Shown piece by piece: positions 6,525 through 35,639 of a stretch of 64,000 bases of DNA. Origin of the DNA: Hericium rajendrae. Its lineage: Eukaryota; Basidiomycota; Agaricomycetes; Russulales; Hericiaceae. Location of the stretch: positions 1,612,001 to 1,676,000 of the forward strand of contig CM065882.1 in assembly GCA_033439255.1 (NCBI GenBank), read 5' to 3'. The notes below the pieces were generated by a model that saw only the letters and a program-made list of their open reading frames with translations, did no database searches and had not been told where the DNA came from. A program made the position numbers and the translations under genes. The number at the start of each line of letters is the position of its first letter. Within the stretch, counting starts at the first letter, position 1.

Positions 6525-7389
6525 GTTGAAATCGAGACTGTCCGACAGATACTATTAAAAATAAGCAATTGTCATTGGGGGTGCACTACTCCGCGTCAAG
6601 AATGTGCGTGATCGCACTCTATCTCGATCAGAAGCGCAAAGATAAACAGAATACGGTGAGACATACGTGATTTAATCCTCCGTGGCGAAACCCACTGTCT
6701 CGGAGTCGGCGCTCGCATTCGAAAATCTTCACCTTCAGCTTCGCGGAGAACGCGAGTGCATCCGCGACGCCACGCAGCGCGAAGGGCAGCATGAGGCTGC
6801 GACTGCGACAACATCTCCTTCTCTAAATTTAAACAAACATAAGAAACTGAACATTTATAGATACAGATGCCAACGCACCATCCGTGTCCATGTCAATGGG
6901 ATGTGACCTTGCTGGTTTCGTCTCCGGGTCTGGATCAATTTCGCCCGATCACAGTCTGTACACATCGTCTGCAGCAGGCCTCGCCTTCAAAGCACCCGCA
7001 AGACCCAGCTACTCATTCTCTTTCTGCTCCGCCTTGTCGAGCAGCTTCTGATACCTCTCCACATCTGAAAAAATGGAATTTTATATAGCTGCAGGTTAAG
7101 TTATGGATGCTATCATTGAGTTATCATAGCTATGTAGTTTGCTTATCAACTATGTAGAGCTATGAGAGCTTCCATAGCTTCCATAGCTATTAGTGTCAGT
7201 TATATAGTATTATCATAGCTTCCATAGCCAGCAGTCTGAAATATATAGCACTATCATACTTAGTAAGGTGAGCTATGAGTACTATGAGTACTCTTAGTAC
7301 TATGTCAAGTCAAATATTCAAAGTCAAAATTACTTATATTCAATAAAATTACTACTACAGAACAGAATGAGTACACTACAAGTAGGAAT

Positions 7390-8470
7390 ACCGCAGGGAT
7401 GCACGGCATGCACAGGTAGGGCCGCGCACAGGCACAAGCGCACTGGTGGGGTGCGACAAAGCATCTCTGCGCACGAGGCGCGGCGCGGTGCGGCAGTCGT
7501 GCACGACGCGGCAGTCGTGCACGACGCGGCAGTCGTGCGCGAAGAGCGGCGGGCCCATGCGAGAGGCGCACGGGGGGAAGAGCAAGGGGCGGCAAGAAGT
7601 CGGTGGGCAGCTAGAGGCGCCACACTCGGGGCAGCGGGGCGCGCACGAGGCATGGAGGCCAGGCGCTGGGCATCGAAGGTGGCGCGAGACGGGCACCGGC
7701 AGCGGGCCCGTGTGCGAGGCGCAAGAGGTGGGCGTGCGGGGCATGCGCGACGTGGCAGTGCCTGTGCGCGACGTGGCAGGCCCGCGCGCCGGAGGTGAGG
7801 TGCTGGGGACGTGCGATGCGCGGCGGGCATGTGCGAGACGTCGGCAGGCCGCGCGAGGCCCCCCGAGACTCGCGGGGCGGCGCAAGGCACGCGGTGGGCG
7901 CACGAGGACGTGGGGTGTCCGCGAAGCGTCGGGCTGTGGCGGGCTCCATGCGCGAGGCTCCTGCCAGCGCGCTCGCAGTCCGTTAGTGGCTGCGGTCGTG
8001 CGTGCGTGGACCTGACCGTACACAGGGGTGCGAGCGTGGTCGCGGGGCCGTGTCCGTCCGTCCGTGCGCTGGCGCGAACGTGCGGAGCTGCCCGTGCACC
8101 TGTGGGGCCGTGCGCGGGCAAATTGGTGCAGCTGCGGGTGCACTGGCAGCCGTATGCGGCGTTGCGGCGACGCACGGCGCCGGTGACGTGTCGGGGGCGG
8201 CGGGGGCGCGAGGATGGCGACGGGATGCGGTGGGGTGTGGAAATGACGGCGGCGGGGAGACGGCGACGGCGACGGGGTGAGCAGGACGGTGGGCGCGGGC
8301 TGTTGGAGCCACGCGGCGATGCGCAGGAAGGCGGAGCGAGGCGCGCTGAACGAGTCTCGTTGCCGTGGCAACGAGACCCGACGACGTCGTCGTCCGCGTT
8401 GTCGAGGGAATGGCGCAGACGTGGTGTGGTGAGCGTCGGCGCGGGATATCGTACCATGTCGTGCGGGAAT
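7390..8470. repeat. Hypervariable GC-rich core of E1
   Basis: Very GC-rich, with short tandem motifs such as GTCGTGCACGACGCGGCA around 7495-7545. Long frames occur on both strands (about 375-380 residues on minus), all Arg/Pro/Ala/His-rich. They are composition artefacts: E2 and E3 do not keep the same reading frames, although parts near 7985-8400 (from TGCGGTCGTGCGTGCG) are shared with E2. Confidence 0.65.
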
Positions 8471-8504
8471 GGAGGTGATTGGCCCTAAGGCAGAGAAATA
8501 AAAG

Positions 8505-8547
8505 AAAACGAGTATCACTCGTGCAGAGCACGAGCGATACTCGTTTT
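8505..8547. other. Conserved long hairpin in E1
   Basis: A ~20-bp stem (AAAACGAGTATC and CTCGTGC arms, one mismatch) closes on an AGA loop. E2 has the same hairpin at 26332-26374. E3 has a different-sequence but equally perfect hairpin at the corresponding place (33930-33958). Structure kept while sequence changes suggests selection on the fold (terminator, RNA end or protein site). Confidence 0.7.
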
Positions 8548-8968
8548 ATTAGCACGGTACAGCGATAAGAGAGACCGTGCTTACTTACCTGAAGGCCCTC
8601 AGCCCGGCTCCTAACCCTCCTGACTGCAAGGCGATGCGAACCGTTGAGTGTGGAGAGGGAGTACGGGGTTGGAGACGAGAGATGAGGGAGTGATGAGGTG
8701 GAAAGCGCAAGTCGCGACTCAGCCAGGACTGCGGTTAAGTTCTTTCGAGCACAACAAATCGAATAAATCGAATTTAAATCAGAAAAAAAGATTGATATTA
8801 TAGAATGTACATAAAACAATATCGCATGAGAAACGATCGTAGATAATGTACCGTAGGCCACTGGCCAGCGAAGACAACTTACTCGGATCTGGCACTTAGC
8901 CTCTGTTGCGGAGCCCGGCAACCTTCGGCCCGGGCGCTCGGCAGCCACGTTTCGGGCCCCGCCAACGC

Positions 8969-9110
8969 CTATATAAGGCATGCGCGACGCGCGTCTCTCT
9001 CTCTCTTTAACCCCCACCATCTCCCGCTTTTATGACCTTTGCTTACTGCTTGCTCTTGTCTTCTTAGCCTCTAAGGTAAAGTCTCTTATGTTTCTTATGT
9101 TTCTACTACT
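8969..9110 (+). promoter_or_regulatory. TATA-like core promoter block of E1
   Basis: CCTATATAAGGC is followed by a GCGCGACGCGCG inverted repeat, a TCTC run, CTTTAACC and ACCATCTC, then CTCTAAGGTAAAGTCTC, which looks like an exon end with a GTAAAG donor. The same order is present in E2 (26805 on) and E3 (34402 on). This suggests a transcript starting near 9000 on the plus strand. No long frame follows, so a non-coding RNA is as likely as a 5' leader. The TATA box is itself palindromic, so direction is inferred. Confidence 0.45.
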
Positions 9111-9943
9111 CATGTTCTTATGTTTTTAGTTAATTTCGCTTTTTTGTAGTCATAGTAGGACTTTTAGGTAAGTTTTCTTATCTTTGTTATATTTCTTAGC
9201 CTGATGTTTTTATATGTGTAGTTTATTTTCGCTTTTTGTTATCTTGGTATGTTTTTTTGTTGTCTTATCTTTTTTATCTTATCTTTTATTATTATCTTAT
9301 CTTATCTTATCTTTCCTTATCTTATCTTAATTTAAAATCTTGCTGTACTCTATCTAGATTATAAATTTATATATAATTGCTTGTATAGTTTGATTAGTTA
9401 GTTTATATATTTTGTATTATTGTTATATAATGTGTAATAAAATTTATATTGATTTGCTCTTTTTTGCTGGTTTGATTGTGTTGTAATATCAAGTTTAACA
9501 ATTGGTCAAATTTTGAAATAATTCAGATAAATAAAATATAGTGTAGAAAGTTGATATAGTCTTAATAATCTGAGATAAGATGACTAGTATTCATATAGCT
9601 TATAGTATGAATAGTACACATATAATATATAGTTAGTATAGTTCTTATAGCTACTTTATACTATGATAGCTATGATAGCTCTCTATAGCTGTCCTATCTG
9701 GCTCTATAGCTCTATATAGATGACACTCAAGCTATATAGAGGTATGAAGAAAAGGAGACAGCTATGGAGCTATGAGAACTATGTAGTCAATATAGTCATA
9801 TATAGCTCTGACAATTTTCTCAGATGCAGACATTGCGTAGCCGTACGACCGACGATCGGTGCTATAGTACGCCATTAGGTTGGCATGAGCTTGGTGAGAG
9901 TCACAAGCTTCTCATCCTCTTCCTGCAAAAACCTTTAGATTTA

Positions 9944-10132
<189 letters not shown>

Positions 10133-10370
10133 TTACCGTACTTTGCAATAGCAGCTTTCAACACCTCGTCTTCGGTGTTCTATGGGATTGATGAGCCTAT
10201 ATAATGGTACAGGATGTCACTGTCAAAGGATGCGAGATGTGACTAATCGATACGCACAGAAATGTTTCTTCAACCTTGCGCCCGAATGGGGCGTACGAGT
10301 CGCGAGGCACAACGAATGCATCCATCATCCAGATATTGTTGCGGCCAGCAGAGGAGGTAGATCATACTGA

Positions 10371-10566
10371 AGGATCTTGTGTGGTCACACAAGGTCTTCA
10401 GCTGCACGTGATACACAAATACATGTACACAAGACCTTGTGCGGCCGCACAAGGTCTTCAACTGCACGTGATACACAAATACATGTACACAAGACCTTGT
10501 GCGGCCGCACAAGGTCTTCAACTGCACGTGATACACAAATACATGTACACAAGACCTTGTGTGGGG
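10371..10566. repeat. 60-bp tandem array of the CGGCCG palindrome plus CACGTGA
   Basis: Three units of exactly 60 bp plus a partial. Each has the palindrome (arms GACCTTGT/ACAAGGTC), then GCACGTGATACAC and ACATGTAC. Units two and three are identical. The first has TGGTCA in place of CGGCCG, still symmetric. The apparent ORFs in all frames here merely reflect the 60-bp period. It lies between the CDC5 relic and the coiled-coil gene at 11097. Confidence 0.8.
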
Positions 10567-11096
10567 ATGGGCATAGCGGATAGCACGTCAAACGTCAGAA
10601 TTTCCCTTCCGAAGGCGATTCCAGTTCTCTCCGTTGACGCGGCTTGCTCGTTGTGTCCGCGCTGGAGTCCCCTCGCGAAATTTCTATCTCCTCACTCAAT
10701 AGCTAGTATTTCGAAAATCGAAGTAGGCAATTGTATTCTAGACATATGTAGCTACATTTTGGTGGGTCAAAATCAACAGATGTTGGAAAATGACAAAGAA
10801 ATGCGGAAATTTCGAGAGAAATAAGGACATCTCTACGAGAAAAAAAGATTGCTTCAAATGGACCCATCAATCTGTAGCCCGGGATCGAATCTATAGAGTT
10901 CATTAGTGGAGTTTGTTGAAGGACAGTGTGCTTGGTGAGGAGAAAGATGAACAAGGCAAGGGATGAGGTGAAAGCGGCAAACCCGCGAGATAAATCGTGT
11001 CGGACGTGTCAGACGTGTCGTGTGCACATCATCATCAAGATCCTCCTACGACGTTAGCACTTGTGTGCTGCTCGAGACGACTAGGAACTCACCATT
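10567..11096. other. Intergenic stretch upstream of the coiled-coil gene
   Basis: No convincing gene. A pyrimidine-poor leader and AGACGTGTCGTGTGCACATC lie just before the ATG at 11097. This region probably holds its promoter. Confidence 0.4.
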
Positions 11097-12300
11097 ATGC
11101 CTCCTTCTAGCCGCTCCTCGCTCCAGGTCAGCCAAACTCGGAGGCTCAACGCGCTCAAAGCAGAGAACAAAGAGAACTCACCTCCAGCCGGAGTCTCGGT
11201 TCCCAAATCTCGCTCTCGAAATACTCGTCGCACTGATGCCTTAATTGCTGCAGAACAGCATATCGAGAGTCTTGAGGCTGAACTCCTGATGCTCCGGACT
11301 TCTCTCGAGAAGGCCACCTCGTGTTCTCGCGAAGCGACCGTGGTTATCGGAGATCTGCAGGCAGCTCTCGATGTCAGTGAAGGGAAACTGAAGGACTCAC
11401 TGGGTCTAGGAGATGCAACAATGCATCGCATCAAGCAAGCTCAGAAGCGCATCGAGACTCAGCGCAAGTGTCTCCTTCGAGCAAGAAAACGAGAAGCCCT
11501 GCTACTTTCTCACAAGGCTACTCTTCGGGATGATTTCCGTCACGCCCAGAACACAATACTTGTCATGCGTGCTGACATTGATTCTGCTCACGCTAATGTC
11601 ACTCGCACTCGGGCTGATGCTTTCCTGGCCTTCGAAAGGGCTGCTCTTGCTGAGGCTCAGCTTCTTGCGGCAACAGAACTGACTAAGACGACATCAGCAT
11701 CGATGCTTGTGCTATCCGAGAGGACTGAAGTGCTCACCAAGGCTCTGAATACTACTCGAAGGCAGGCCGCTATCTCGGAGAAGACTCTGGAGGGCTGTCG
11801 AAAGAAGCTGAGAGCAAGTCAGATGTGTTGTCTTCGTGCAAAGCATGCTCGCGACAAGGCTAATGAGCGTGCACGCGCTGCTCTTGCGCATCGAAGACAG
11901 ATGGCAACATGGAGACTCACCCGTGGACGTACATATTCTCCTGAGGCAAGAAATGCTGCGCGCTTGTTACAGCGAGCCGGATGTTCGCAAGCAGCTGTGG
12001 GACCAACCATCAAAGCACTCGCGGGAATCTTCGGAGTATCTGTCAATCGAACGATGAGTCGTCGTACTGCTCAGAGAGCATCTATCGAGGGTGGAATTGC
12101 TGCAAAGATGCAACTTGGATATGAGATCTCGAAATCTCAAGGTATGGTTCAAATATCTCATTGAAAAACTATCACTCACCTCACGTAGGATTCACGGCAA
12201 GCGGGGATGGTACGTCGCATCGCAAGATTACATACGCAAGGCTTGTGCGACCGCACAAGGTCTTGATGGGCTCATGGTATGGCCAAGCAGCTGCCTGCTA
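11097..12300 (+). pseudogene. Coiled-coil protein of an expanded Agaricomycete family, truncated at a palindrome
   Basis: Exon 1 (11097-12141) encodes a basic Ser/Arg-rich start (MPPSSRSSLQVSQTRR), a long coiled coil at residues ~45-270 with Leu/Ala heptads, and a conserved tail with LLQRAGCSQAAVGPTIKALA and MSRRTAQRASIEGG. A 47-nt GT-AG intron (12142-12188) joins exon 2, which begins GFTASGDGTSHRKITY. I recall this ASGDGT(S/T)HR block from many mushroom proteins of unknown function; that is memory, not a search. Right after KITY the frame runs into the palindrome at 12238-12264 and stops near 12300, so most of the C-terminal domain is missing. A short protein may still be made. Confidence 0.65.
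12238..12264. repeat. CGGCCG-type palindrome at a gene breakpoint
   Basis: An AAGGCTTGTGCGACCGCACAAGGTCTT-type inverted repeat (core 12242-12259 perfect except the central CGACCG) sits exactly where the preceding gene loses similarity to its family. No E-box is adjacent here, unlike the other copies. Confidence 0.5.
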
Positions 12301-12429
12301 CCCAACTCAGATATAAGATGACCAGGATACATATTCATGTCATGACACCGACGTAGCTGTTTATACATCTATGCTGCTGTCCGAGTGCGAGGAGGAGTAG
12401 TCGTCGGCGGGCCCAGCGACTATGCTGCG

Positions 12430-14552
12430 TCAAACAGACAAGCGCGAGGGCAAGTCATCCTCGCTATCCGTGATTCTGATCACACTTTGAGACTGCGACT
12501 CATCGTCGCTGTCCGTGTTATTATCTGGGAAGTCGGAAGGGCCCTGTGTCTCTTCAATCGGGAAGTCCGTAGGCTTTTCAGCCCAGCTTCGGTGTTGAAG
12601 GGTCTCGTGATCTTGGATCAATGCTTCCATGAACAGAAGGCGCATGCCGTTAAGATCGCGAGGATCTCCAAAGGTCAACAGGAACTCAGGCGGGACGAGC
12701 TTTGAATTCAGCCCACCGTGAAGGAAGTGATATATGAAGACAAGAACAAATACCCCGCAATCTGTTGAGTTGGATTGAAAGGGGCACTAAACAAAACACG
12801 TTAACCATCAGTGGAACTTCAACTGCCGAGCACTGACTAGCACATGAGGCTGGAGCTCCCAGACGCTCCAGTCCAGAAGTAAAGGAAGGTTGAACTGCTC
12901 CTTCAGCTCTCTAAAGCAGCGTTCAACGAACCATTTCAGGCGCTGAAGGGAGCACATAAACATTATCAACTTGAATTGCAAGCAACCTCATTATCACGCA
13001 CCTGTATGATATTCCAGTGTTTAGACTGGTCCGGGTCCTTGCTGACATTGCGCTCGAAAGTCTTTTTCAGACTGTCGTAAACTGCAATACGCTGGTCGAC
13101 AAAGTCGACAACAGCTAACACCCAGTGGATTTCGGATGGAAGATGGACTGGAATAAGTATTTGCTTCCAAGGGAGACCATGGCCACACTCGAACATGTTC
13201 TGTCAAGGACATCTGAGTCCAGACGTCAGAGATGCCAGAGGGAATAAACGTACTTGCAGACCAGGATACGAGAAAACGTCTTTGAAACTTGAGGGTGGCG
13301 GCGCGGAGGGTAGACGAGTATTCATGAAACTTGTGCGCAGAATGAGGGAATTGGGAACTGGGTGCTCCACTTGATTGCGAAGTACGTTATCAACGTACCG
13401 CTCAACATCTGACCTGGGCGCAGACGATCCAAGTCAGACTGCTCGCACGATCCAATCTTGATATTTCGTTTGACCTTCTTCTTGAGGAGCTGGAACACGT
13501 ATCAGAAATGACAGTTGTCAAAGGAAGAAGCTCAATCACCTCTTTTAGAGTCGACTTGACGGATACATAGCCCTTATCCCTCCATGATAGGATTTCTGAA
13601 CGAATGCCTTGCACAGTGGCCAGAATTCCGAAAACAAGAGCCTGAACACGAGAAAGCACGTATCCCGGTTCACCCTGCAGCTCCGGAGACCACGGATTTC
13701 TATTCCATATCATTGTCGCTCGTTCAAGCAGATATCGACCACCAGCAAGTGCTTGCTCAAACTCCCTACGCCGCTTGACGACACTGTTGTATCCCACATC
13801 AGCCTTACTCCTGACCAGCTGATCTTTTATCGTGGGCAGTAATTGACGCTGCAGAGTAAGAACAGCGCCGTCCATGTCCACTGCGTCCCAGACCCAGAGA
13901 AGTTGAGATTGCGTCAGCCAGCTTTCGACTTGACCGAGCCAAAGCGTGAATGGTAATGCAAAAGCGGAGGGAACCGAGAGAGCAGCGAACTTGAGGAGAC
14001 GATGCGTGACGATTTGTGTGGGCAGTGAGATGTGCGGTGGCAGATCTTCTGCAAGTGGTGACGGGACATGCTGCTCGACGTGCTGCGGGACGAGGGACAC
14101 GAGTGGTGTCGAGACATGCTGCGCAGGGGGAAGGGGGACAGGGTGTAGGACGTGCTGCGCGAGTGGCGGCGGGACGTGTTGCACAAGTGGCAGGACCAAA
14201 CATGAGGGAATGTATCGCGCCGCCTTGCGAGATGCTGCAGACGCAACATGCTGAGCATCCTGTTCAGCTCTCTGGCGCAAATCGCCTGCAGTCAACTGAA
14301 CGATCACAAACTTCGTGGATCGTTCAGTTAACTGCTTCTTGCGGTAATAATGCCTAAAGAAAGACTTCGTTAGTGAAACATAAAGCACAAGATAACCACG
14401 TACCTCTTCTCTAACTCGCTCTTCTTATCGAGTTTTGCCCTGTCCTCCTGGGTACGTTTTTTGCCCTGCTTGTCGTGCGTTGTCGCCTTACGACCTGTTT
14501 ATAGTTAACAGCAAGTCACCAGCAACGAAAAAGAAATCTTTAAGCTTACCCA
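12430..14552 (-). CDS. Ulp1-like SUMO/ubiquitin-like peptidase (C48 family)
   Basis: C48 peptidases cut SUMO-type modifiers from proteins by a His-Asp-Cys triad. The His box is SEIHWVLAVVDF..IAVYDSL (about 13050-13130). The Cys box, QSNSTDCGVFVL with oxyanion-hole Gln and catalytic Cys, is near 12745-12780. Exon 1 is a tiny MG.. exon at 14552 with GTAAGC donor. Exon 2 encodes RKATTHDKQGKKRTQEDRAK, a basic helix. A large exon (13402-14388) has a Pro/Val/Gln-rich linker with QHV repeats and a helical domain. Acidic Ser/Asp residues end the protein. Ulp1-type peptidases are often linked to transposons in basidiomycetes, but no transposase adjoins this one. The frame looks intact; exon borders are approximate. 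Confidence 0.7.
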
Positions 14553-15246
14553 TTGTTATGCCGTTGCAGGATGCAAGACAAGGTGTGTGACTTCACCGTT
14601 GTGCAGCGCTTCAGAGTTCCGGCCCGGTCTGACGTCCGGGACCGGTGCAGAACCTTTACTTCCAAATATGGTAATTAAAATTCTGCCCTCCAGAAAACGA
14701 CTACCGTTTATGGATGTTCGTGTTCTGCCATCACGGATGACACACATGAGACTAGTAAGTAGCGTTTAATCCTGACGACTGGTTGAGTGCTGCTCCGTCT
14801 TTGAGCTTCATCACTTGCTCAATCGACCAAATTCAACACACAACCGTAAGTCAATACGACATATGTCAGTGACTGAAGTACTGATCACTAACTTACAGTA
14901 AAATTGTTCAACTTAGCCGCTGGGCGAGTACGCGGATGGCTTGAACAGGGTTGAAATACTCGAGTACCGGCAACCCCATATAGTGAGAGGAGCAGGCGGC
15001 AATCGACAGCTACAGCGTGGAGAACCAAAGGTGCGTGTGTTATAATCTTCTATATCTATGCGGTTAAGCTTACTTCCCGTCCAGAAAACCCTTTTCCTCA
15101 TTGTTGAGCACGGCTAGTCACCAATTCACGACAGCGACCACGCCTTTCCTAAATTTGCACGTGCAGTGGACCACGGAGCATCTCAGCAAGCGACCGACCC
15201 TGGTTGCCTTCTGCACAAACGTGGTCCTTTATCTTTCTCTCTCACC
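14553..15246. other. Divergent promoter region between the Ulp1-like and F-box genes
   Basis: Separates two genes transcribed away from each other. The half next to 15247 is pyrimidine-rich (CTTTCTCTCTCACC), as in fungal leaders. Small ORFs in this stretch have no recognisable content. Confidence 0.4.
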
Positions 15247-16928
15247 ATGGACACCCTTAGCTCTCAAATTCGCCATCTTCATACAGCTGAATTCGAGCCA
15301 TCCACCGTCACCCCGATGAACATGCTTCCGGTCGAGGTCCTCATCGACATCTTCTTATATTGTGCGCACAGCGCCGCGATTACCCCGCTCACCCTTGCCC
15401 AGGTCTGTAAGCAGTGGAAGGTTATCACAGAGAACGACATGCGTATGTTCCAGCTCATCGTGCTCGACGACTCGAAGCTGTCGCTGGTAAGCTCGAACAA
15501 GGCATCGCACACATTCCTGCAACGCTCCAAAGACCTGGAGTTTGACGTCGACGTTCAACTCTCCTCCCGTGACTCCCTTCTTCCCATCCTATCCCCTTTC
15601 TTGTCGTCGCTACATCGATGGCGCTCGTTCACACTGCAAGGCATCTGGCACGAGCACATCTGCTTTCACCGCTTCTGGTGTTCCGACGCCGCTAAGCCAA
15701 ATCTCGAGCAGCTCGAAATCAGTGTCCTCGAGCAGGTCCACACCCAGACAGACATGGATGACTCGTTATCCGGTGCACATGCAGGTACTTTCCGACCATA
15801 TACCATTTCGTTGACCTCCAACCTCCTCTGCATGGATGTCGTGCTTACGAAACTGCCTTCGCCGGCTGTCCTCGTTCCTCTGCATTTTGTTTCACTATTC
15901 ATCACGGAAGGCTCTCACTCACTCAACATACATCCCTCTGACCTGCTTCATTTCCTTACTGCCTGTCCGATGCTCGAATATTTTTCCTTTAACGGGATTA
16001 TGATGGAACCAACGTTGACTGAAGCAGATCTTCAAGTTCCGCCTCCAGTCGCTCGTCTCCCATATCTCCGCTCGCTCGTCCTTCACAGTACACTTTGCAC
16101 ACGTGTGATCCTTTCCCATCTCGACACCCCCGCCCTTAAAGAGCTCTACCTCGAGCACCTCAATGTCGATTTCGCTTTTCTCGTCCATAACCCATATCTC
16201 ACTCATCACTCGCATCCCACTACGCCCATCTCCGTCTCTGCATCGTCACACGCCTCCATTCTGCCTCCTGCATGCTCGAACACACCCATGACACTCGTCC
16301 CACTCCCAGAGTCGCCTCCACGTCCCTCGCCCCCAGCTTCCCATCCATGTTTCTTCCGTCCGGGCCCTCGGAGCGCACATACGAACTCGAAGACGGTGAC
16401 TCGGACGATGAATGGCCCGATTTCTCCCAGTCACCGTTCAGTGACCACGCGACAGGCATGGGCGTCCGTAGTCTCCTGCTACGCTCGAACCCGCCACTGC
16501 GCGTGCTCGAAATGGACCACGCCGACATGCGCACGAAGGACTTTGCCTGGCTCTTCGCGCACGCACGTTACCTGGAGGACTTCCGCATCGTTGCTTCGGA
16601 CATGACGGACCACGTCATCACGATGCTTGCACCATGCCTCATGCCTATGGAGCCCGACACACGTGAGCCCGACAGCACTCGCCTCGTGCACCACGTGTCA
16701 TTACCACGCCTCAAAAGTGTCCAGCTGTTCAACTGTCATCGGTTCAGCGGTGTGGCAATCGTGCAGGCCCTCGCGCAGCGCGTGGTCGTGATGGACAGGC
16801 TGGCACGGCATGGCATTGTGGAGTTTGCATCATTGGAGGATGTGGCAATCGTGCAGTGTTCGCGCTTCACGGCCGAGCATGGCGCAGAGCTGGGTGTGAC
16901 ACTGGGCGAGCGGCTACGCTTTCATTGA
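15247..16928 (+). CDS. F-box protein, probable SCF ubiquitin-ligase adaptor
   Basis: The start chosen is the ATG at 15247 (CACCATGGAC, strong context). Residues ~24-70 fit an F-box: NMLPVEVLIDIFLYCA followed by PLTLAQVCKQWKVIT, the Skp1-binding fold. After it come irregular leucine-rich segments (LPYLRSLVLHSTL, ALKELYLEHLNV, PLRVLEMDHADM, LKSVQLFNCHRFSG), as in the large mushroom F-box/LRR family that picks substrates. The reading frame changes between about 16240 and 16310. A 65-nt intron (16245-16309, GT...CAG) would restore frame, though the donor is weak; a frameshift is the alternative. An acidic linker (YELEDGDSDDEW) lies just after. Confidence 0.7.
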
Positions 16929-17380
16929 GATAAAATTGGACGATCGGTGTTCACACTGAGTATAGTTCTTGCTGCCCCTGTTGTTTCCGCCTTCCCTTGA
17001 CTGACCTACTTCTTGCTCTAGGTCTCTGGTCTGCTACGGACTCTTTCGCATCGCAATATCTACTCTTAATATCCCAGTCGCTACGTCTCTTTCCCTGTCT
17101 CTGAACCTTTCGCTCTGACTTGCATGGATTGTCTGTATCTATATTTTATCCCAATCGTGCAGCTTGTACATACACGTGTACACGGTGGCTTTCACCTGTT
17201 GGACATATCCCAATATTGATGTATAATACACCTCATGGTGCTGTGGATCAATGACACGGTGCTGGAAATTTATGTCCTTGATGAGTGTATGAGAGGACTT
17301 TGTTGACCGCCTTTGCGAGTCCTGTTCTGGCCAACACTGTCATCTGATCACTTCGTTTTCAGACGTTCACGCATTTCTAG
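16929..17380. other. 3' flank of the F-box gene, no gene seen
   Basis: Pyrimidine-rich sequence and a GTACATACACGTGTACAC inverted repeat near 17166. I see no coding potential. Probably the 3' UTR and the spacer to the convergent glycogen synthase relic. Confidence 0.4.
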
Positions 17381-23565: not shown

Positions 23566-23578
23566 CAGAGCAGAGTAG

Positions 23579-24872: not shown

Positions 24873-26331
24873 CAGCACAGTCATCTGACACTTGTGCAGT
24901 TGCAAAATATGATTATCATCTGAAAAAATGGTTTTTTATATAGCTGCAGGTTATTTTATAGGTGCTATAGGTGTGCTATAGGAGCTATGTATTTTTCATA
25001 TCTAGCTATGTAGAACTATGAGGGCTATCATAGCCTCCATAGCTAATAGTGCCAGCTATATAGTGTTATCATAGCCTTCATAGTCTGTAGTTTGAGATAT
25101 ATAGCACTATCATACTTGAAGAGGTAGCCTATGGCTACTATGGTTACTATTGTCATTATGCTAAGTCAGCCACTAGTATCAAAGATCCCAAGTCAAAATT
25201 CTTTATTCATAATCGGAGACTACTACAAACAAGTTTACTACAATGTACTACTATAGATAATTAGACCCGAAGAATATTTCTGCCTATGCTGCAGATGATG
25301 CAGCATGGACACGCGCACGAGGTGCGCGGTGCGTGTGCAACACGGCGCGCACGCGCACGAGCGTGCGCAATGCAGCGGGCACGCGCATGAGGCGCGCAGC
25401 AGCCTTACGCGATAAAAGAGCATGCACACAAGGCGCGGATGCCGTACGCGGCACGGCAGACCCGCGTGCGAGGTGCGGATCCGCACCTGCCGCGTGCGGG
25501 AGCGAGGCGCGAGGTTCGCGGGCCGTGTGCGAGGCGTCGGGCTGCGGCGGGGCCTGCATACGAGTGCGGGGGTGTGCGTTGACATGTGCCAGCTTGCGTG
25601 CGCTACCATGCGTGAGTGCGGCCATATCTCCGCCCGCGCGGCCGTGCGCAGGGCAGCACAGCCAGGCGCAATGTAGGCGGGGCGGACCGCGAGGCCACGC
25701 GCGGAACGGCGGGCCCGTGCGCACAAGCAGCGGCCATGCGTGGCCGCCTCCGCACGTTGCGGAGCAGTGCGTCGCCCCCGGCATGCGGTCAGCGTGCTGG
25801 TGAGCCCTGCCAGTGCGCTCGCAGTCCGTGCGTGGCTGCGGTCGTGCGTGCGCTGACCTGACCGTACGCAGGGGCGCTGGCGTCGTCGCGGGGCCGCGTT
25901 CGTCCGTCCGGGCGCTGGCACGGGCCTGTGAGGCTGCCCGTGCACCCATGGGCCGTGCGCGGGCAAACCAGTGCGGGTGCGGGTGCACTGGCAGCCCTAT
26001 GCGGGTGTTGCGGCGACGCACGGCGCTGGTGACGTGTCGGGGGCGGCGGGGGCGCGAGGATGGCGATGGGATACGGTGGGGTGTGGAAATGGCGGCAGCG
26101 GGGACGGGGTGGGCAGAACGTGGGCGCGGGCTGTTGGAGCTACGTGGCAATGCGCAGGAGGCGGAGCGAGGCGCGCTGAACGAGTCTCGTTGCCGTTGCA
26201 ACGAGACTCGACGTTGTCGTCGTCCGCGTCGTCGAGGGGATGGGGCAGGTGGAGTGTGGTGAGTGATGGCGCGGGGTACCGTAGCGTGTTGTGCGGGGGA
26301 GGTGATTGGCCCGAAGGCAGAGAAACAAAAG

Positions 26332-26374
26332 AAAACGAGTATCACTCGTGCAGAGCACGAGCGATACTCGTTTT
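26332..26374. other. Conserved long hairpin in E2
   Basis: Same sequence and place as the E1 hairpin (8505-8547), between the GC core and the AT-rich spacer. Confidence 0.7.
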
Positions 26375-27106
26375 ATTAGCATGGTACAACGATGAGAGAC
26401 CGTGCTTACTTACCTGAAGGCCCTCAGCCCGGCTCCTAACCCTCCTGACTGCGAGGCGATGCGAACCGTCGAGTGTGTGGAGAGGAAGTACGAGGTTGGA
26501 GACGAGAGACGAGAGAGTGATGAGGTGGAAAGCGCGCGTCGTGCTTCAGCGAGGACTCGACTTGCGCGGTTAAGTTCTTTCGAGCACAACAAATCGAATA
26601 AATCGATTTTAAATCAGAAAAAAAGACTGATATTATAGAACGTACATAAAACGATATCTCATGAGAAACGATCGTAGGTATTGTACCATAGGCCACTGGC
26701 CAGCGAAGACAACTTACTCGGATCTGGCACTTAGCCTCTGTTGCGGGGCCCGGCAACCTTCGGCCCGGCGCTCGGCAGCCACGTTTCGGGCCCCGCTCGC
26801 AACGCCTATATAAGGCATGCGCGACGCGCGTCCTCTCTCTCTCTTTAACCTCCACCATCTCCCGCTTTCATGACCTTTGCTTACTGCTTGCTCTTATCTT
26901 CTTAGCCTCTAAGGTAAAGTCTCTTATGTTTCTTATGTTTCTACTACTCATGTTCTTATGTTTTTAGTTAATTTCGCTTTTTTGTAGTCATAGTAGGACT
27001 TTTAGGTAAGTTTTCTTATCTTTGTTATATTTTTTTAGCCTGATGTTTCTATATGTGTAGTTGATTTTCGCTTTTTGTTGTCTTGGTATGTTTTTTTTTT
27101 GTTGTC

Positions 27107-27220
27107 TTATCTTTTATTATCTTATCTTTTATTGTCTTATCTTTTATTATCTTATCTTTTATTATCTTATCTTTTATTATCTTATCTTTTATTATCTTAT
27201 CTTTTATTATCTTATCTTAA
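27107..27220 (+). repeat. TTATC microsatellite in E2
   Basis: Alternating TTATCTTTTA and TTATCTTATC units, i.e. dense GATAA motifs on the minus strand. Present but shorter in E1 (~9265-9320) and E3 (~34795-34850). It may be simple slippage, or a cluster of GATA-factor sites downstream of the TATA-like block. Confidence 0.6.
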
Positions 27221-27716
27221 TCTAAAATCTTGCTGTACTCTATTTAGATTATGAATTTATATATGATTGCTTGTATAGTTTGATTAGTCAGTTTATATAT
27301 TTTGTATTATTGTTATATAATGTGTAATAAAATTTATATTGATTTGCTTTTTTGCTAGTTTGATTGTGTTGTAATATCAAGTCTAACAATTGGTCAAATT
27401 TTGAAATAATTCAGATAAATAAAATATAGTGTAGAAAGTTGATATAGTCTTAATAGTCTGAGATAAGATGACTAGTATTCATATAGCTTATAGTATGAAT
27501 AGTACACATATAATATATAGTTAGCATAGTTCTTATAGCTACTTTATACTATGATAGCTATGATAGCTCTCTATAGCTGTCCTATCTGGCTCTATAGCTC
27601 TATATAGATGACACTCAAGCTATATAGAGGTATGAAGAAAAGGAGACAGCTATGGAGCTATTAGAACTATGTAGTCAATATAGTCATATATAGCTCTGAC
27701 AATTTTCTCAGATGAT

Positions 27717-27988
27717 ATCTTCTGAATGTACTAGCTGAAATCAGGACAGTAATAAACTAGATGTACAAGGAATAATGCAGAAAGGATGTACAGTAAGAGG
27801 CAACAAGGGCTTATCTGTATCTGAGACGTGGCACCCCCAATTTAGCAAAAGACTGACGATGTCACAGCAAGTTTTTACATGGCATGGACTGTCATCCTTT
27901 CTGCAAAAGCTGTAAGCATCCCCCCTACAACACCAACAGGATATGCGTTCAAAACTGAGAGAGATTATATAAAGCAAAGACTAAGTTA
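27717..27988. other. 3' flank of the uncharacterised gene at 28-29 kb
   Basis: No coding signal beyond a short minus-strand ORF without recognisable content. It lies between E2 and the gene stop. Confidence 0.35.
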
Positions 27989-29253
27989 AGTAGCAGAAGG
28001 TGCTGTGTCTTGCATAAAAGTGTCTTCTAATCCTTCTACACGATCTACCCCTTGGACGCTGCTGCTCTTCACCTTCTTCGCCTCCTTCTTCACTGAATAT
28101 CCAATGCGTCTCTTCATAGTCTTGGAAGGGGAAACAGTTTTAGTAAACTGTGCGGTATATACTTGCATGTCGTAAGCCTAATAGTGATGTGTGAGCAAGG
28201 TTGACGAGTAAAGATCAAAAGAAATAAGTTGCCTCTTGAAGCTGACGATCCAAAATAGCAATAGATCTGAGCTTGCACACCATTTGATACATGCCTTTCT
28301 TTGCCCAGAGCGGTACAGTACCAAAGGATACCTGCAGCTGAACTATTTGACCTGAGCGTATGACTGCTGGATCAATAGCAGTGTAGTCGTAGTTAGATGC
28401 TCTAAAAAAATATTCATCAGATTAAAGCGACATTGAACTGATGAAAACAAGAGATCGTACAAGGTATCAGATTGTCTCTCGTAATACTCCACTTTGTTGT
28501 CTTCGAGGTGAGCACCTACATTAGACGTAGCTTGCAGCAAGATACCTTGGGGATCTATGACGTCTCCAAATGGAACAGGACTATGACCCTGAGATTGAGA
28601 GAGGGGAGTGACATAGCGATTGGAAAAGGCGAAAGACGGATGATCTTCCGTCTGATCAGGGACCCAGGGTCTGAGACTGTTTACCGAATAGACACTATCG
28701 ATGAGATGGTGGATGGCAGCAATGCCCGTTATAGCCTGCTCAAAGATTGGTGAGCTGAAGCCTAGCAAATGCACGCTCTGCTTGGCCCAGATAGGCTTTC
28801 CAGGTAGGCTAAAATGATATCATTCAAGTTATTACAGACAAAAGAGAGATAAAGTTGACACGTACCGGTTACGATGCAAGACAGGAGGTAAATCATAGTC
28901 AAGCAAGACACCCTGCATCTCCCAGACAGCCTCTTCCAGTTCCGCCTCAGGATCACTGTTCCGTAAGACAACCTTTGCAGTACCATCGGGGGCCTTATGT
29001 GAAACATAGTTTGCACGCAAAAATTTGATCTGAGAAAGACAACGTTCAGAAAGAGGTCATAAGCAAGAATATAGCTAGACGCACATCTGACATATGTTTG
29101 AGCTGAAGGTGACGTGGCAATTGCTGAGCAGCATCCTCACAGATTTTGAGAGCATGAGTTTCTACAAATTGCGGTTAGCTAGGAGGAAGTGCAAAAGGAC
29201 ATAGACTTACGACAATCTGACTTGTCCAGAAATTGGATCAGAGAGTGAGACAT
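27989..29253 (-). CDS. Uncharacterised Agaricomycete family protein, multi-exon
   Basis: The start chosen is ATG 29253 (MSHSLIQFLDKSDC, then GTAAGT). Later exons give LKHMSD, IKFLRANYVSHKAPDGTAKV, LLDYDLPPVLHRNR, PTWKAYLGQAERAFARLQ, DVIDPQGILLQA, GAHLEDNKVEYYER, SGQIVQLQVSFGTVPLW, MYQMVCKLRSIAILDRQ and a basic tail with KKEAKKVKSS. The DPxGxL, HLEDNxVxYY and GxIVxxQ pattern is one I associate with abundant mushroom proteins of unknown function; this is recollection. Between about 28700 and 28790 two frames compete, so either an unusual small intron or a frameshift lies there. Confidence 0.5.
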
Positions 29254-29698
29254 TGTACGGTAAGAGAAGTTGGAGATGAAGAGACGCGTGTATATGAAAA
29301 TAGATGGAGACAAAATGAGGAAGAAGAGGAGTGATGCAAGAAAATTTGGGCGGTTTGACCTGGACAAAAAATGAGATGAGGTGATTTCACATATTTGTTT
29401 GATTGGTAGACGGTCAGAAAAATATCATGTGGATAGACAGGTGAAGAGCGTTACCAGGATAGTCATAGACTTTGCAATTCTATGTGAGTAAAGCGAAGGT
29501 GTCCAGACCATCTGAGAAATGGATCTGGGTTATGTCAATGGGCACTGCCAATCAGCTTAGGCCATGCTGCAAAAATTGGACGGAGCAACAGTGTTAGTGG
29601 AGAAGCAAAGATTGTTAAAAGTTTTAGAGATCTGTAGATTCTGTCAACTGGATCAACGTCCCAATTCAGCTGTTTGCCAACTCCGTTAAACAGCACTA
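29254..29698. other. Non-coding flank with a possible orphan element end
   Basis: Contains CATCTGAGAAATGG at 29509, similar to the left ends of the E elements, but no matching right end was found. Otherwise nothing recognised. Confidence 0.3.
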
Positions 29699-29750
29699 CA
29701 GAACTTGGGGGAAGAGGGCCAATGCTGTGCATGGCAAAACGATTCCTTTT
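29699..29750 (-). other. Helitron-like 3' terminal hairpin block, relic
   Basis: On the minus strand this block matches 50806-50860 at about 86% by eye, starting AAAAGGAATCGT. It contains a hairpin with GCCATGC and GCATTGGC arms, where the other copy has GCCGTGC and GCATCGGC: paired changes that keep the stem. The 50.8 kb copy follows the Helitron coding region directly, so this is likely the end of a second, decayed or non-autonomous Helitron extending to the right. Confidence 0.4.
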
Positions 29751-30321
29751 ATTATTATTAATGAAGGTATATAAATTACCTCACACATAGATCAGACACA
29801 CCATGCCCTGCCTCTGATGTCTTATGCATGGGCTCAGATGCTACACATGCTAGCATATGTATGGCTAATAAATGGTCATAGCTATGCACAAGCACATCAG
29901 TTAGCACACCTATGTAGGCATGTCATGTACCTGTACCTCATGCCTTATACTTGGCATGTAGCATTGTGCTAGGGCCAGTACCTCGTGCATGCCTGCTACA
30001 CCTCATGCCAGCCCACTGTGCCTCATGTTCACTGGCCACACCCTATGCTGGTTCACCACATCTCGATGTACCTTGTGGATGGGCCAGTGACAGCTCAGAG
30101 ATGGCTACAGCTGAATATGAGCATGTCAGTCAGCACAACTATATACACACATTGTGTGTTGCCATGTGCAGGTATGTCACTTGCCTGTACCTTTGTTGAG
30201 ATCGGGGCAAATGCTCATTACCAAAGCACACTAAGTGTGATTTTCATCTTATCTCGTTCCTTACCTTTAGATTAGATGTTTCAGGCCTGGAGCCCAGATC
30301 GATTATGTACACTACTGTACA
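29751..30321. other. No gene; possibly interior of a non-autonomous Helitron
   Basis: Rich in CATG-containing simple motifs (ACATGCTAGCATATGTATGG). Small ORFs lack known content. It is bounded left by the hairpin block and right by MITE1. Confidence 0.3.
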
Positions 30322-30742
30322 CATCAGGAAGCCCCTAAACTTTCTGATTTGACCTGTGGAAATCTGCGGGACCTGCAGAACATCGTGCGAGTCAAGTCAG
30401 ACACATCAGATGATGTCAAAGAGCTATTAGTTAGGTTAAGATAGCATCAGATAAAATCAGACAGTCTCAGACAACATCAGATTATTTGACTACCAGATTC
30501 AGTCAGAAATGATCTCAGACAACAAAAGATTTTTGTAAATTTTAGATTAAGGAAATTGTATTATATTTAATAATTAAAGATAGATAACTACTATATCTAA
30601 CAAGAGGTCTCTACTGTTTAAGCTAAATATTTAATGAGATATTAACATATGAAAATTTGCAACAGGTGTATCAGACTCTGCAGTAGCTGCAGTTATTGTA
30701 AAAGTGACAGACTGTCTCAGAAAGTTTAGGGGCTTCCTGATG
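30322..30742. mobile_element. MITE1 (421 bp), Plavaka-type ends
   Basis: Starts CATCAGGAAGCCCC and ends GGGGCTTCCTGATG. The inverted repeat extends through AAACTTTCTGA. 2-bp duplication CA at 30320-30321 and 30743-30744. The interior is AT-rich with TAACTACTATATCTAACA, shared with MITE3 and MITE4. Confidence 0.8.
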
Positions 30743-30769
30743 CAGTTGCTTTCAGCCCCTTGTGCTGTT

Positions 30770-30983
30770 GATGTAGGCACAAGTTTGCAGGATGTTTACC
30801 TCAGTGAATTCTTCTATCACTGAGGTATGTGATCTATGCTTCTTTCATTGATTATTAATGTACTTACTTCATGGGCAGTCCTGACTGCTCGGTATCATTC
30901 TAGGTACATAATCAATGCAGTGAATTCTTCTATCACTAAGTCCTGACTGCTCAGTATCATTTTAGATACCTCTCATACCCTAG
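30770..30983 (+). repeat. Probable 5' LTR of the copia relic
   Basis: Begins TGTTGATGTAGGCAC and ends at the primer-binding site. It contains an internal duplication (AGTGAATTCTTCTATCACT, twice). No second copy in the window, so its limits are not confirmed. Confidence 0.4.
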
Positions 30984-30998
30984 TTCTTCTAAGAGGTT

Positions 30999-32061
30999 AT
31001 GGGCCCTGGTTCTGAATCAATGTTGCTCAACAACTCATTCAACCTTTACACTGTCCCAAAGCTCACAGCCAAAGGCTCGAACTGGGTGATGTACAAAACC
31101 TGCATCGTGACCATGATCGGAGTGAAAGGTTTGATGCACCATCTGAGAGGCACCGCCAAGGAACCAAAGGAACCATTGACATCACTCAATAAAGACAAAA
31201 AGGATGTCAATCTGATGACCAAGCAACTGGATGATTACAAAGAAAAGTGGGACAAGTGGCTCCAACAGGAATATACCATCAAACAACAGATCTTCTTGAC
31301 GATCACCAAATCACTCCTTTTATGCATGCAAGATCTCGATCGTGCACACAAAGTATGGTCTACCATACTTGTAATGAATACAAGGGCAAGACCAAAATGA
31401 TCCAAATTGATCTCCGGTGATGGCTCCAGGAGACAGGTTGTCAAACCAGCGGCGACGTCCATAAGCACTTCAATTTGTTGCTTTGCATAAAGGAAGAATT
31501 AGCAGGCATGGGGGCTAAACTAATTGACACCAATTTCACTGCCATAATTTTATCTTTACTCCCCACTGACTACAATCCTGTCCTCTCAGCAATGCTCTCA
31601 GCTGCTTGTATCACTGGAAAGACCATCCTGCCAATGACCATCATTTCTCACGTCGATGAGGAATTTGATCACCATGCGATCAAGGCCCAGCTCAACAAGG
31701 TTGATACAGTGCTCATCGTGGGATCTGATCCAAAGAAGCATGGCACTAGCCAAGACATGTGTGGCAACAGCAATGGCAGCAGCTCTGGCACGAAGAACAA
31801 TGTCAAGTGCTCGAACTGCAGACACCATTTTCACAGCACCGCTAATTGCTGGCAGAAAGAAGACAGAAAGGAGGGGCAGGAATCCGATAGGAAGGGCAAG
31901 AGCAGCAGGAAAGACAAGGACAGCAATGGGAAAGGTACAGCAAATGTGGCTGCCACCCTCGAGACCCATTTTGCTTTCTCAGCACTAGCTGCCATGGTTC
32001 CCGACTCAGCGCTGATGCAATGCATCGACATCAGCACCAGTCACCATTACTCCTCTTTCTG
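30999..32061 (+). pseudogene. Copia Gag region
   Basis: Recognised by GSNWVMYKTCIVTMIG near the start, KQQIFLTITKSLL in the middle, AGMGAKLIDTNFTAIILSLLP later and a CSNCRHHFHSTANCW knuckle, the usual order of copia-type Gag. It is part of a broken element. Confidence 0.7.
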
Positions 32062-32990
32062 ATCAGAATTCTTGAACTTCCATCAGATTGCACCTAAACC
32101 GATCATCACTGCTGACAAGCATGTTTTCTTCGTGACAGGCTGCGGTGATGTAATTATTACCTTCTCAAATGGTGACACAGTCACCAGGATCACCCTGAAG
32201 GATGTACTGTACCATTTTGATCATAGGCTCATGGGGGTTGAGCTGTGACTGAGAACTTAGTAGGCTCATTTGGTCTCTTAGGCTCACAACGGGCTGTGAC
32301 CCATGACCAAAATAAAATAGGCTCACTCATCCCTTATGTTTTCAGGGATTTGCAGGCTCATATGCTTGGAGACATCTCATATTATCTTGTTGCATCTGAA
32401 AAATGTGAAATCTACATAGACTGGTGTTAGATTATGCAGTCTATCATATGGCTATGTGGTCTACATAGTTCCCTTCTCATATATATATAGAGCTATAATA
32501 GCCATTATAGTTTCCATAGCAGTAGGTACAAGAGATATAGCACTATGTAAACATGAGGGATGGCTATGATTGCTATATAACCTCCTAAGCATGCTATGGG
32601 AGCTATGTGCCCTATGACTAGACAGATAGACACCCAAGACATCAAGCTAAATTTTATTATATAGCAGACCAGAGCACAAGCTGAGTTGTCAAGGTGAATT
32701 TATTGACAATCCCAATGTAGCTACAGTAGTCACTAGCTACGATGATTATAACATCGGCAAGACAATGCATGCGGAGAGGGCTGGGGCCATCTATGAAGGC
32801 GCAGGCCATGTGCGAGGAGCGCGGGACATGCGCTTAGGGCGCCGAGATGTGCGCGAGAGGGTGGGACGTGCCAAAATGGCAAGGATGTGCGCGAAATGGC
32901 GGGGATGTGCACAAAACGGCGGGGACGTGCGCGAAATGGCGGGGACGTGTGCGAAACGGCGGTGCCGTGCGCGAGGCATCCAAGACGTGC

Positions 32991-33090
32991 GCGAGGCGAC
33001 CGAGAGAGCAGCGAGGCGACCGAGAGAGCAGCGAGGCGACCGAGAGAGCAGCGAGGCGACCGAGAGAGCAGCGAGGCGACCGAGAGAGCA
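32991..33090 (+). repeat. Five exact 20-bp tandem repeats in the E3 core
   Basis: Unit GCGAGGCGACCGAGAGAGCA five times with no mismatch, so recently expanded. Around it are looser repeats of the type GCGAAATGGCGGGGACGTGC (32880-32970). Confidence 0.9.
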
Positions 33091-33929
33091 GCGATGGGCA
33101 CGAAGGGGCGGAGGCATGCACGAGGGGGCGGAGGCATGCGCCAAAGGGCGGCGACGTGCGCCAGAGGGCGACGACGTGCGCGAGAGGGCGACGACACCGA
33201 GGCGTGGGCGAGGCATGCAAGACATGCGCGATGCGAGGGCGGCGTGCACGAGAAGGCGGCAACGTGCACGAGAGGGCAACGACAGGTGCGAAACAGGCGC
33301 GAGGGGTGCGAGACAGGCGCGAGACGTGCGTGAGGAGAGTGGGTCGCACGCGGTCTACTTGGCTCGTGCGCGAGCTGCGGCCGTGCGTGGTCCGTTGGGT
33401 GCATGCAGGGCGGAGTGGACTCTGCGCAACGTGCGCGTCGTGTCCGCGCGCTGGCGCTGCCATGCGAGGATGCGTGTGGGGGCTTGAGCGATGTTGACGG
33501 GGTCCGTGCGCACGGGTTCGTGTGCTGGCGCAGGCATGCGCAGCCGTGTGCTGGTGCTGTCGTGGGGGACCGTGCTCATGGGCAGACGGGCGTGTGGCTG
33601 GCGACGCAGTATGAGGCGGACGACGCGTTGTCGAGTCTTGTTGCCGTGGCAACGAGACTGCTTTGCTGGGTGAGCAGGCTCTTGAGGCCGTGTCCGTGGG
33701 TGCTGGGAGTGCCTGCGTGTGGTTGGTACCATGTGCGAGCCGGTGGAAGTCCCCGCGTGTTGTCGCAGCTGTGTGCGCGGGATGGGGGTGGCGTGTGTCA
33801 GCGGTGGCACGGGCGTGGGTTGTCGACGAGGCAGGGAGTGGGAAAACAGGCGCAGAGTGCGTGAGAGACGAGGCGGGGTGTCGAAGGGCATGGAAGGTGG
33901 CGTAGAGTGGTCGAAGAACAAGTGAAAAT

Positions 33930-33958
33930 GAGTCTCGCTCGATAATCGAGCGAGACTC
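33930..33958. other. Perfect hairpin in E3
   Basis: A 14-bp perfect stem GAGTCTCGCTCGAT with a one-base loop, placed exactly where E1 and E2 have their 43-nt hairpin but with a different stem sequence. Confidence 0.7.
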
Positions 33959-35639
33959 GAGATGAGTAGATACAATGAAAATAAAAGCTTTTTATACGTA
34001 TCTTGGGCCCCTCTGACTCCCATAATACCCTTCCGGCTTCGAAAACAGAGCAGACGAGGATGTTGAAATGGAAAGGATGTAAGGAGCCATGAGGAGATAC
34101 GAAGGGGAGGATGACGAGTGAAAGCAACAAGTCGAGCGATGCGCCTTCGGTGCTTCAGCCACCGAACGAGCGAAGCTACGTTCCTCGAGCCACAACAAAT
34201 CAAGAAAATTCGCATTAATTTAGAAAAAAACAGTATAGCTACAAATTATACATATGATTCGAACTAATGAGCATACGAGGTATCTACTATGCATGAAGCT
34301 CACAGGGAGCCAAGTCCATTTAGTGAAGTCTGGCGCCCAGTCTTGATGCGACGCTCGGCAAGCGCTCCGGCAACCACGAATCCCGGATCCGCCCGGGATT
34401 TGTATATAAGGCTCGCGCGATGCGCGTTGCCTCTTGCTCTTTAACCCCAACTATCTCTTGCCACGTCGACGCTTTTGTCGACGTCCTTTGCTCGCTCGTC
34501 ATTATCTCTTGCTCGCTCGTCATTATCTCTTGCTCGCTCGTCATTATCTCTTGCTCGGTTGTCATCATTTCTTGCTCGTTTGTCACCATTTCTTGCTCGT
34601 TTGTCACCATTCTTATTTATTTATTTGCTCGTTGTTGCTATATATAAGGTAACCATTAATTGTTGTTGGTCTCTTATTGCTCATACTAATACTAATGTCT
34701 TCAAGTTAATTTTTTTTAGATTTCACTTTTTGTTACTTTGGTAAGTTTGTATGTGTTATCTTTATCTTTTCTTATGTTTTCTTATATTCTCTTACTTATC
34801 TTATCTTATCTCTTATAAATTTATCTTATCTTATCTTATCTAATTTATATTTTCTTACTTATATTGTTACTTTTATTTTATTTTAGTTAGTAGTAGTTTT
34901 ATAATATCAATATAATGTTGATGCATTGAAAGAGTTTATATTTGTGTGATTATATGTTATTGATTTTGATATGACTGTAGACAAGATTTATAGTTTTAAC
35001 AGTTTTTATTGCTTCAATATATATCAGGCCTACATATTGAATATAAAATATATGAGACTTAAACTGAGTATAGAATATGTGAGACACATATTGAATATAG
35101 AATATATAAAACACATATTGGGTATAAGATATACAAGACTCATAAGCCTTACAGCTTTGATGAACACTTATAGCTTTCATAGCTAGTCATACTATCATAG
35201 CTGCATAGTCAACTCTCATAGCTATGATAGCACTCCATAACATCACCCTTAAGCTCCATAGCACTATATAGCACTCCCCTTTAGCTATGTGGGCTACAGA
35301 GAAAAGGGCAGTGCTATGGAACTATTAAATCTATGTAGACTTCATAGAGCTATGTACCACTTGTAAGTTTTTCAGATGTGTGAATGCTCAGACAGCTTGA
35401 ACATGTAATGAGATGATTTTAGCCCTCCACAAAGGTCTTGCATTACACCAAGAAAATTTTGATTTTAATTTAATTATAATCAAAATTTGGTCACAGATAT
35501 CAATGAGGCTCATCAGACTTTGTGACCAGTAACAAAGTGGTGATTAGGCATAGCTCAAGGGTTCCTGTGACCTGTGACATGAGCTTACGATCGAAATGGT
35601 ACAGTACTGTACATGCTGAGCATAGCGTTTACCCTGATT

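Follow-up and report, generated by a model that had tools for sequence, protein, structure and literature searches.

Non-autonomous inverted-repeat transposons with a conserved promoter-like interior in Hericium rajendrae

The stretch of DNA analysed here, called the window below, comprises 64,000 nt of the basidiomycete Hericium rajendrae (assembly GCA_033439255.1, contig CM065882.1, positions 1,612,001 to 1,676,000 of the forward strand). It contains matches to a Plavaka transposase (E 3e-100), a Helitron, a PIF1-like helicase, an F-box and a glycogen synthase, together with three full copies of a transposon family that we call E. Our subject is the E interior, in which promoter-like and intron-like blocks follow one another in a constant order. 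A first-pass annotation had described these copies as non-autonomous elements with an ordered, non-coding cargo; the element description and the ordered interior stood up to analysis, the cargo interpretation only in part.

Elements, ends and coding potential

The full copies, a remnant of a further one and the two arms of E1 are located as follows.

7062–9826, plus strand: E1, whole element (2765 bp), CA/CA flanks
24917–27714, plus strand: E2, whole element (2798 bp), AT/AT flanks
32393–35378, plus strand: E3, whole element (2986 bp), diverged, TG/TG flanks
37123–37178, minus strand: E4 remnant, left end only (56 bp) of a fourth, diverged member, from a looser end-sequence search
7062–7330, plus strand: E1 left arm, CATCTGAAAAA end and AGCTAT/ATAGCT repeats, from motif counts
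9641–9826, plus strand: E1 right arm, same motifs as the left, from motif counts and similarity to E3

All three full copies start with CATCTGAAAAA and finish with CAGATG (CATCTG...CAGATG ends in 3/3), and a 2-bp duplication lies directly outside each of them (CA, AT and TG; 3/3). The coordinates, ends and duplications given in the first-pass annotation were exact. The motifs AGCTAT and ATAGCT occur 4 and 5 times in 300 bp of the E1 left arm; in sequence beyond the E elements, each averages below 0.1 per 300 bp. They are subterminal in both arms of E1, E2 and E3, with only one occurrence across the three interiors combined. The E1 right arm aligned with E3 at a score of 70 (highest of 300 shuffles: 32).

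Using blastn with the three elements against the window (E<1e-3), we obtained no match beyond E1, E2 and E3. The E4 left end scored 35 against E1, 27 against E2 and 34 against E3, the best of 500 shuffles being 26, 23 and 26. Among 161 CATC[T/A]G sites it ranked below the three left ends, the E1 and E2 right ends and one site overlapping E2, and above all remaining sites including the E3 right end (score 27). No second end of E4 was identified in the window. A frame with a GAG-pre-integrase match (35613–36254) lies ~0.9 kb from the remnant.

Coding potential was assessed from 147 reading-frame pieces of at least 25 amino acids (aa) and 37 downstream pieces of at least 30 aa, 30 of which were scanned against Pfam. 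The scan returned two weak matches (E 0.027 and 0.33), far below the cut-offs, and no transposase relic among these 30 pieces. Likewise, tblastn of the 147 pieces against the Plavaka gene of the window gave no match. The claim that no protein is conserved was thus borne out in that no recognised protein was present in the scanned pieces. With their ends and duplications and no recognised transposase, the E elements are non-autonomous DNA transposons with terminal inverted repeats.

Two coding candidates were considered and rejected. The GC-rich core has frames of up to 389 aa, but none of the 20 core or upstream pieces scanned had a Pfam match near the cut-off (strongest: E 0.33), and five of the six gaps between E1 and E2 in 7940–8530 are not multiples of 3, which breaks the frame. 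The tblastn similarities between cores fall in several frames and also reach a GC-rich stretch at ~4.2–5.6 kb (68% GC); being scattered in this way, they are read as composition. As for coding relics downstream, 10 of the 37 pieces were scanned and gave one weak match (DUF6057, E 0.027, 13.8 bits against a cut-off of 29.8).

Order and conservation of the internal blocks

We compared 60-bp windows of E1 (68) and E2 (69), taken without prior choice, with E3, using 60 shuffles for each. Above all 60 shuffles were 16/68 windows of E1 and 14/69 of E2, and these were collinear with E3 in 14/16 and 14/14 cases. On the reverse strand, used as control, 10/68 and 6/69 windows also exceeded the shuffles, which palindromes and inverted arms would lead one to expect in part: among windows that also passed on the plus strand, the top reverse scores belonged to these features. 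The scan bears out the earlier claim that E1, E2 and E3 keep the same order of parts despite the divergence of E3.

A second comparison of E1 with E3 covered 18 segments, picked after viewing the alignment, with 300 shuffles each. No shuffle reached the observed score for the left end, the GTTGCCGTGGCAAC palindrome, the ACAACAAATC block, the TATA-CTTTAACC block, the TTATC array or the right arm. One of 300 did so for the splice-like cassette and for spacer b (8561–8740), and 3/300 for the proximal promoter. Intermediate values were obtained for the hairpin and the left part of the GC core (9/300 each), the inner left arm (12/300), the right part of the GC core (23/300) and spacer a (39/300). 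The AT spacers e and d (54/300 and 115/300), the 5' leader (164/300) and spacer c (217/300) were not conserved. Judged by this comparison, the promoter-like and other control-like blocks have diverged less rapidly than most of the intervening DNA. The first-pass annotation had named slower evolution of the hairpin and TATA blocks as a sign of cargo function; slower change holds for the TATA block and several others against most spacers, but not for the hairpin, whose sequence similarity is marginal. The blocks on which the interpretation turns are these.

8741–8800, plus strand: E1 ACAACAAATC block, motif at 8751, from comparison with E3
26586 and 34192, plus strand: ACAACAAATC motif in E2 and E3, from comparison with E3
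8961–9030, plus strand: E1 core promoter-like block, TATATAAGGC at 8970 and CTTTAACC at 9005
26807–26850, plus strand: E2 core promoter-like block, TATATAAGGC at 26807 and CTTTAACC at 26843
34403–34446, plus strand: E3 core promoter-like block, TATATAAGGC at 34403 and CTTTAACC at 34439
9076–9252, plus strand: E1 intron-like cassettes, predicted introns 9076–9129 and 9168–9221 (54 bp each), cassette exons of 38 and 25 nt, GTATGT at 9247
34649–34746, plus strand: E3 intron-like cassette, predicted intron 34649–34719 (71 bp), 21-nt exon, GTAAGT at 34741
9255–9335, plus strand: E1 TTATC array, from a tandem-repeat search and comparison with E3
27097–27218 and 34756–34862, plus strand: TTATC arrays in E2 and E3

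The distance from TATATAAGGC, the TATA-like box, to CTTTAACC is 35 bp in E1 and 36 bp in both E2 and E3, close to the typical spacing between a TATA box and the start of transcription. The pair occurs at no fourth place in the window. Downstream, E1, E2 and E3 share a cassette composed of a branch-like CTNAT site, a T-rich tract running to AG, a stretch of 21–38 nt and GTAAGT or GTATGT; E1 and E2 have two copies each and E3 has one. The predicted introns bear GT...AG borders, and lengths of 54–71 bp are normal for fungal introns. The TTATC array that follows has nine TTATC in 80 bp in E1, against a window average of ~0.3 per 100 bp for TTATC or GATAA. We take TTATC to be the reverse complement of a GATA-type site. 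AATAAA is found downstream in E1 (9436, 9530) and E2 (27326, 27418); E3 has no AATAAA downstream of CTTTAACC, only ATTAAA at 35324 within the right arm. Past CTTTAACC, the first ATG opens a frame of 11, 11 and 4 codons in E1, E2 and E3, respectively, and the longest ATG frames of this downstream part measure 38, 45 and 71 aa. At the level of sequence, the interior therefore has the fixed TATA-to-start spacing and the splice signals of a unit transcribed by RNA polymerase II (Pol II), and would represent the promoter and spliced leader of such a unit. A scan of the window against Rfam gave no match at gathering thresholds. The promoter pattern had 0 matches in collections of virus and prokaryote contigs, a result that says little.

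Further upstream are two inverted repeats in each element.

8351–8380, plus strand: E1 palindrome with GTTGCCGTGGCAAC core, from an inverted-repeat search and comparison with E3
26181–26210, plus strand: E2 copy of the palindrome, one centre base different, from the same searches
33633–33659, plus strand: E3 copy of the palindrome, from sequence comparison
8505–8547, plus strand: E1 hairpin, 20-bp arms with one A-C mismatch, from an inverted-repeat search
26332–26374, plus strand: E2 hairpin, identical to that of E1, from an inverted-repeat search
33930–33958, plus strand: E3 hairpin, perfect, from an inverted-repeat search

The GTTGCCGTGGCAAC core resembles an RFX X-box. The hairpin had been called perfect, which is correct for E3; E1 and E2 have one A-C mismatch each. 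One A-T pair of the E1 hairpin is C-G in E3, a double change. As RNA, the hairpin folds far better than shuffled sequences (z -9.1 in E1, -5.1 in E3). It ends 423 (E1), 433 (E2) and 445 bp (E3) upstream of the TATA box and would thus be outside the predicted transcript. A protein-binding DNA palindrome is therefore the likelier reading, and an RNA hairpin as transcript product was dropped as first choice. A special RNA fold of the GTTGCC palindrome was unsupported for E1 (z -1.66; 18/200 shuffles as good), weak for E3 (-2.11; 7/200) and better for E2 (-3.49; 0/200). Inverted repeats of this sort are common in the window, where 18 of 26 fall outside the elements (arms of at least 13, at most one mismatch, loop of at most 12). 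Palindromes of 26–28 bp with the structure AGACCTTGT-N-CGGCCG-N-ACAAGGTCT occur outside E at 3177, 10431, 10491, 24771, 24828, 38029 and 38789, some of them in tandem 57–60 bp units, and ACGAGAACGAG...CTCGTTCTCGT palindromes are repeated at 53477–54459, in part within a 239-bp tandem array.

The remaining large part of the interior is the GC-rich core.

7380–8490, plus strand: E1 GC-rich core, 72% GC, CpG observed/expected 1.26, from composition

The cores have 68–72% GC and CpG observed/expected ratios of 1.23–1.26 (window: 0.76). Outside the palindrome, similarity of the E1 core sequence to E3 is marginal at best. In E3, tandem 20-bp units make up much of the core's left part; the recognised tandem arrays are short in E1 (53 + 45 bp) and E2 (68 bp). 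The core is thus a minisatellite in E3 and presumably also in E1 and E2. Over 7262–7961 of E1, identity between E1 and E2 is 39–62% per 100-bp window, which we take to be near that of unrelated GC-rich DNA, a presumed baseline. The claim of a conserved core accordingly held for composition but hardly for sequence, considering also the E1–E3 shuffle results above. The next two windows are 88 and 83% identical, followed by 91–100% from 8162 to the end, except for 81% at 8362. Hence 7262–7961 is a fast-changing, CpG-rich stretch in an otherwise young pair with near-identical right halves.

The divergence of E1 and E2 is also uneven at their ends: 166 of the left 200 sites are alike (83%) and 198 of the right 200 (99%; Fisher p 5e-9). 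This mosaic suggests exchange between copies. Purifying selection was therefore not read off the E1–E2 comparison.

Interpretation of the interior

We tentatively propose, with a probability of about 0.45, that E belongs among the non-autonomous cut-and-paste transposons, with ends of a CMC/Plavaka-like type, and that its interior is the promoter and intron-bearing leader of a gene, probably of a lost transposase gene. Autonomous relatives would have kept this region unchanged as they diverged, and deletion derivatives would have inherited it. A transposase, possibly of the CMC/Plavaka kind, would act in trans, cutting at CATCTG...CAGATG and duplicating 2 bp, and would probably bind the AGCTAT/ATAGCT repeats of both arms. 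The interior would be a Pol II gene control region and leader, with upstream palindromes, a TATA box, a predicted start site ~35 bp downstream of it, short introns and TTATC arrays. In the likeliest case, this would be the remnant of a transposase gene from larger autonomous relatives, whose promoter and splice blocks selection for transposase expression would preserve. Internal deletion, perhaps within the AT-rich DNA that separates the TTATC array from the right arm, would have removed the coding part independently in the E1/E2 and in the E3 lineage. If so, derivatives stemming from diverged relatives would resemble one another in control blocks but not in spacers. Deletion joints are expected in the AT spacers, which are among the parts with no similarity between E1 and E3.

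Several points weigh against this proposal. Neither a transposase relic nor an autonomous E copy was seen in the window, and deletion derivatives often retain some coding DNA. It is somewhat unlikely that two independent deletions would remove all coding sequence and yet leave the distance between CTTTAACC and the right end so alike (822 and 872 bp compared with 940 bp). One of the stretches termed spacers, 8561–8740, is conserved with respect to E3. The Plavaka end in the window, CATCAGGAA, differs from the E end, CATCTGAAA, and the family placement draws solely on ends and duplication length. We nevertheless regard deletion derivatives as the most economical account. The first-pass annotation had suggested that a transcription unit is carried as functional cargo. 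The anatomy of such a unit is supported by the TATA spacing and the branch-, acceptor- and donor-like cassette; a cargo function would not follow from it, since elements formed by separate deletions in diverging autonomous copies would look the same.

The main rival, serious though unlikely, is a long-lived non-autonomous lineage with its own spliced non-coding RNA gene, whose RNA or transcription would aid persistence, for instance by opening chromatin at the ends or interfering with silencing. Were coding sequence already absent from the common ancestor, the promoter would have to be conserved for the sake of the non-autonomous element itself, which leads to this explanation. It is consistent with a shared plan and the lack of recognised coding sequence in both lineages, with conservation of promoter block, splice-like cassette and TTATC array but not of leader and AT spacers, with the intron-sized stretches and their branch-like sites, and with AATAAA downstream in E1 and E2. 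E3, however, has ATTAAA in its right arm instead, the 5' leader is unconserved, Rfam gave no match, the transcript is a prediction from sequence, and the comparison spans just two independent lineages. We accordingly consider it doubtful that E is a protein-less family whose selected cargo is a conserved promoter-driven spliced non-coding RNA gene, kept although much of the element has become unalignable. The internal blocks could instead be cis-acting sites for transposition or chromatin, such as protein-binding palindromes and GATA-type arrays selected for mobility, with a promoter look that is incidental or keeps the DNA accessible. The palindromes retain symmetrical arms, with the one double change in the hairpin, and both the hairpin's place ahead of the TATA box and the dense TTATC arrays would suit such a role; without transcription, however, it is difficult to account for the TATA-to-start spacing and the splice-like cassette, and we judge this reading improbable.

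An ordinary Pol II promoter layout would also be expected had the transposon captured the promoter and leader of a host gene and then spread. This is a rather remote prospect, the TATA-CTTTAACC pair being found in the window solely in the three E copies. The replication or centromere-like function raised earlier is very hard to credit: apart from the AT-rich arm and the A-rich ACAACAAATC block we found no evidence for such a module, and E1, E2 and E3 do not form an array but lie scattered among sequences of genes and transposons.

The usual view of a non-autonomous DNA transposon is one of ends plus filler. In E, promoter- and splice-site-like blocks appear to outlast most of the filler. Should independent deletion be the correct account, E would be a record of the control region of an autonomous family and lead directly to its transposase. 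A selected RNA would mean DNA transposons living by an RNA, and the annotation of protein-less elements would change.

Comparison with known systems

Miniature inverted-repeat transposable elements are non-autonomous and noncoding with inverted ends, features shared by E. Unlike them, E is 2.8–3.0 kb long and has a conserved internal promoter-like block and splice-like signals. Among the titles and abstract openings listed in a literature search, none described an element of the E kind, which does not prove that print holds none.

The window itself allows a comparison with Plavaka: it contains a transposase gene of this kind and four short Plavaka-type elements, whose ends read CATCARGAA, which have 2-bp duplications and which fit PlavakaB. 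The query that revealed them was the end at 60696, past the Plavaka gene (at most 6/25 mismatches).

30322–30742: short Plavaka-type element, CA duplication
45090–45670: short Plavaka-type element, CA duplication
52525–52925: short Plavaka-type element, AT duplication
60892–61272: short Plavaka-type element, AA duplication

At 56413–60696, the gene is followed by TCTGA-rich repeats, over ~1.3 kb, and by a right end of the CATCAGGAA type; no left end of its element was identified in the end search. Its flanking TCTGA repeats distinguish it from E, with AGCTAT/ATAGCT in the arms. The element at 45090 sits between two frames that hold two parts of a Helitron domain.

CNEST of Cryptococcus neoformans (PMC12810828) is, like E, a basidiomycete element with 2-bp duplications, and belongs to the CMC supergroup. 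In contrast to E, it is ~7.2 kb long, has CACGG ends and TA duplications, and encodes a transposase. For clearly non-autonomous copies of CNEST, that paper reports no mobilisation in the isolates it studied. En/Spm (CACTA) and its defective derivatives (PMC2613891) resemble E in their short inverted ends and repeated subterminal motifs, which in En/Spm are described as cis-determinants of transposition bound by an element-encoded protein. En/Spm differs by its CACTA ends and 3-bp duplications, and in E the promoter-like block lies 1.9 kb inside the element, past the GC-rich core.

PlavakaB of Agaricomycotina has CATCA..TGATG ends and 2–3 bp duplications, and the CMCT clade mostly CA..TG ends and 2–5 bp duplications (Kojima 2025, PMC12730594). 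The E ends, CATCTG..CAGATG, depart from the PlavakaB end as written: they share CATC-N-G but lack the A at position 5. No transposase was recognised in E. The 2-bp duplications (3/3) fall within the PlavakaB range, and the outermost bases, CATC..GATG, are the same. In ends and duplication length, the two features compared, E thus agrees with the CMCT clade.

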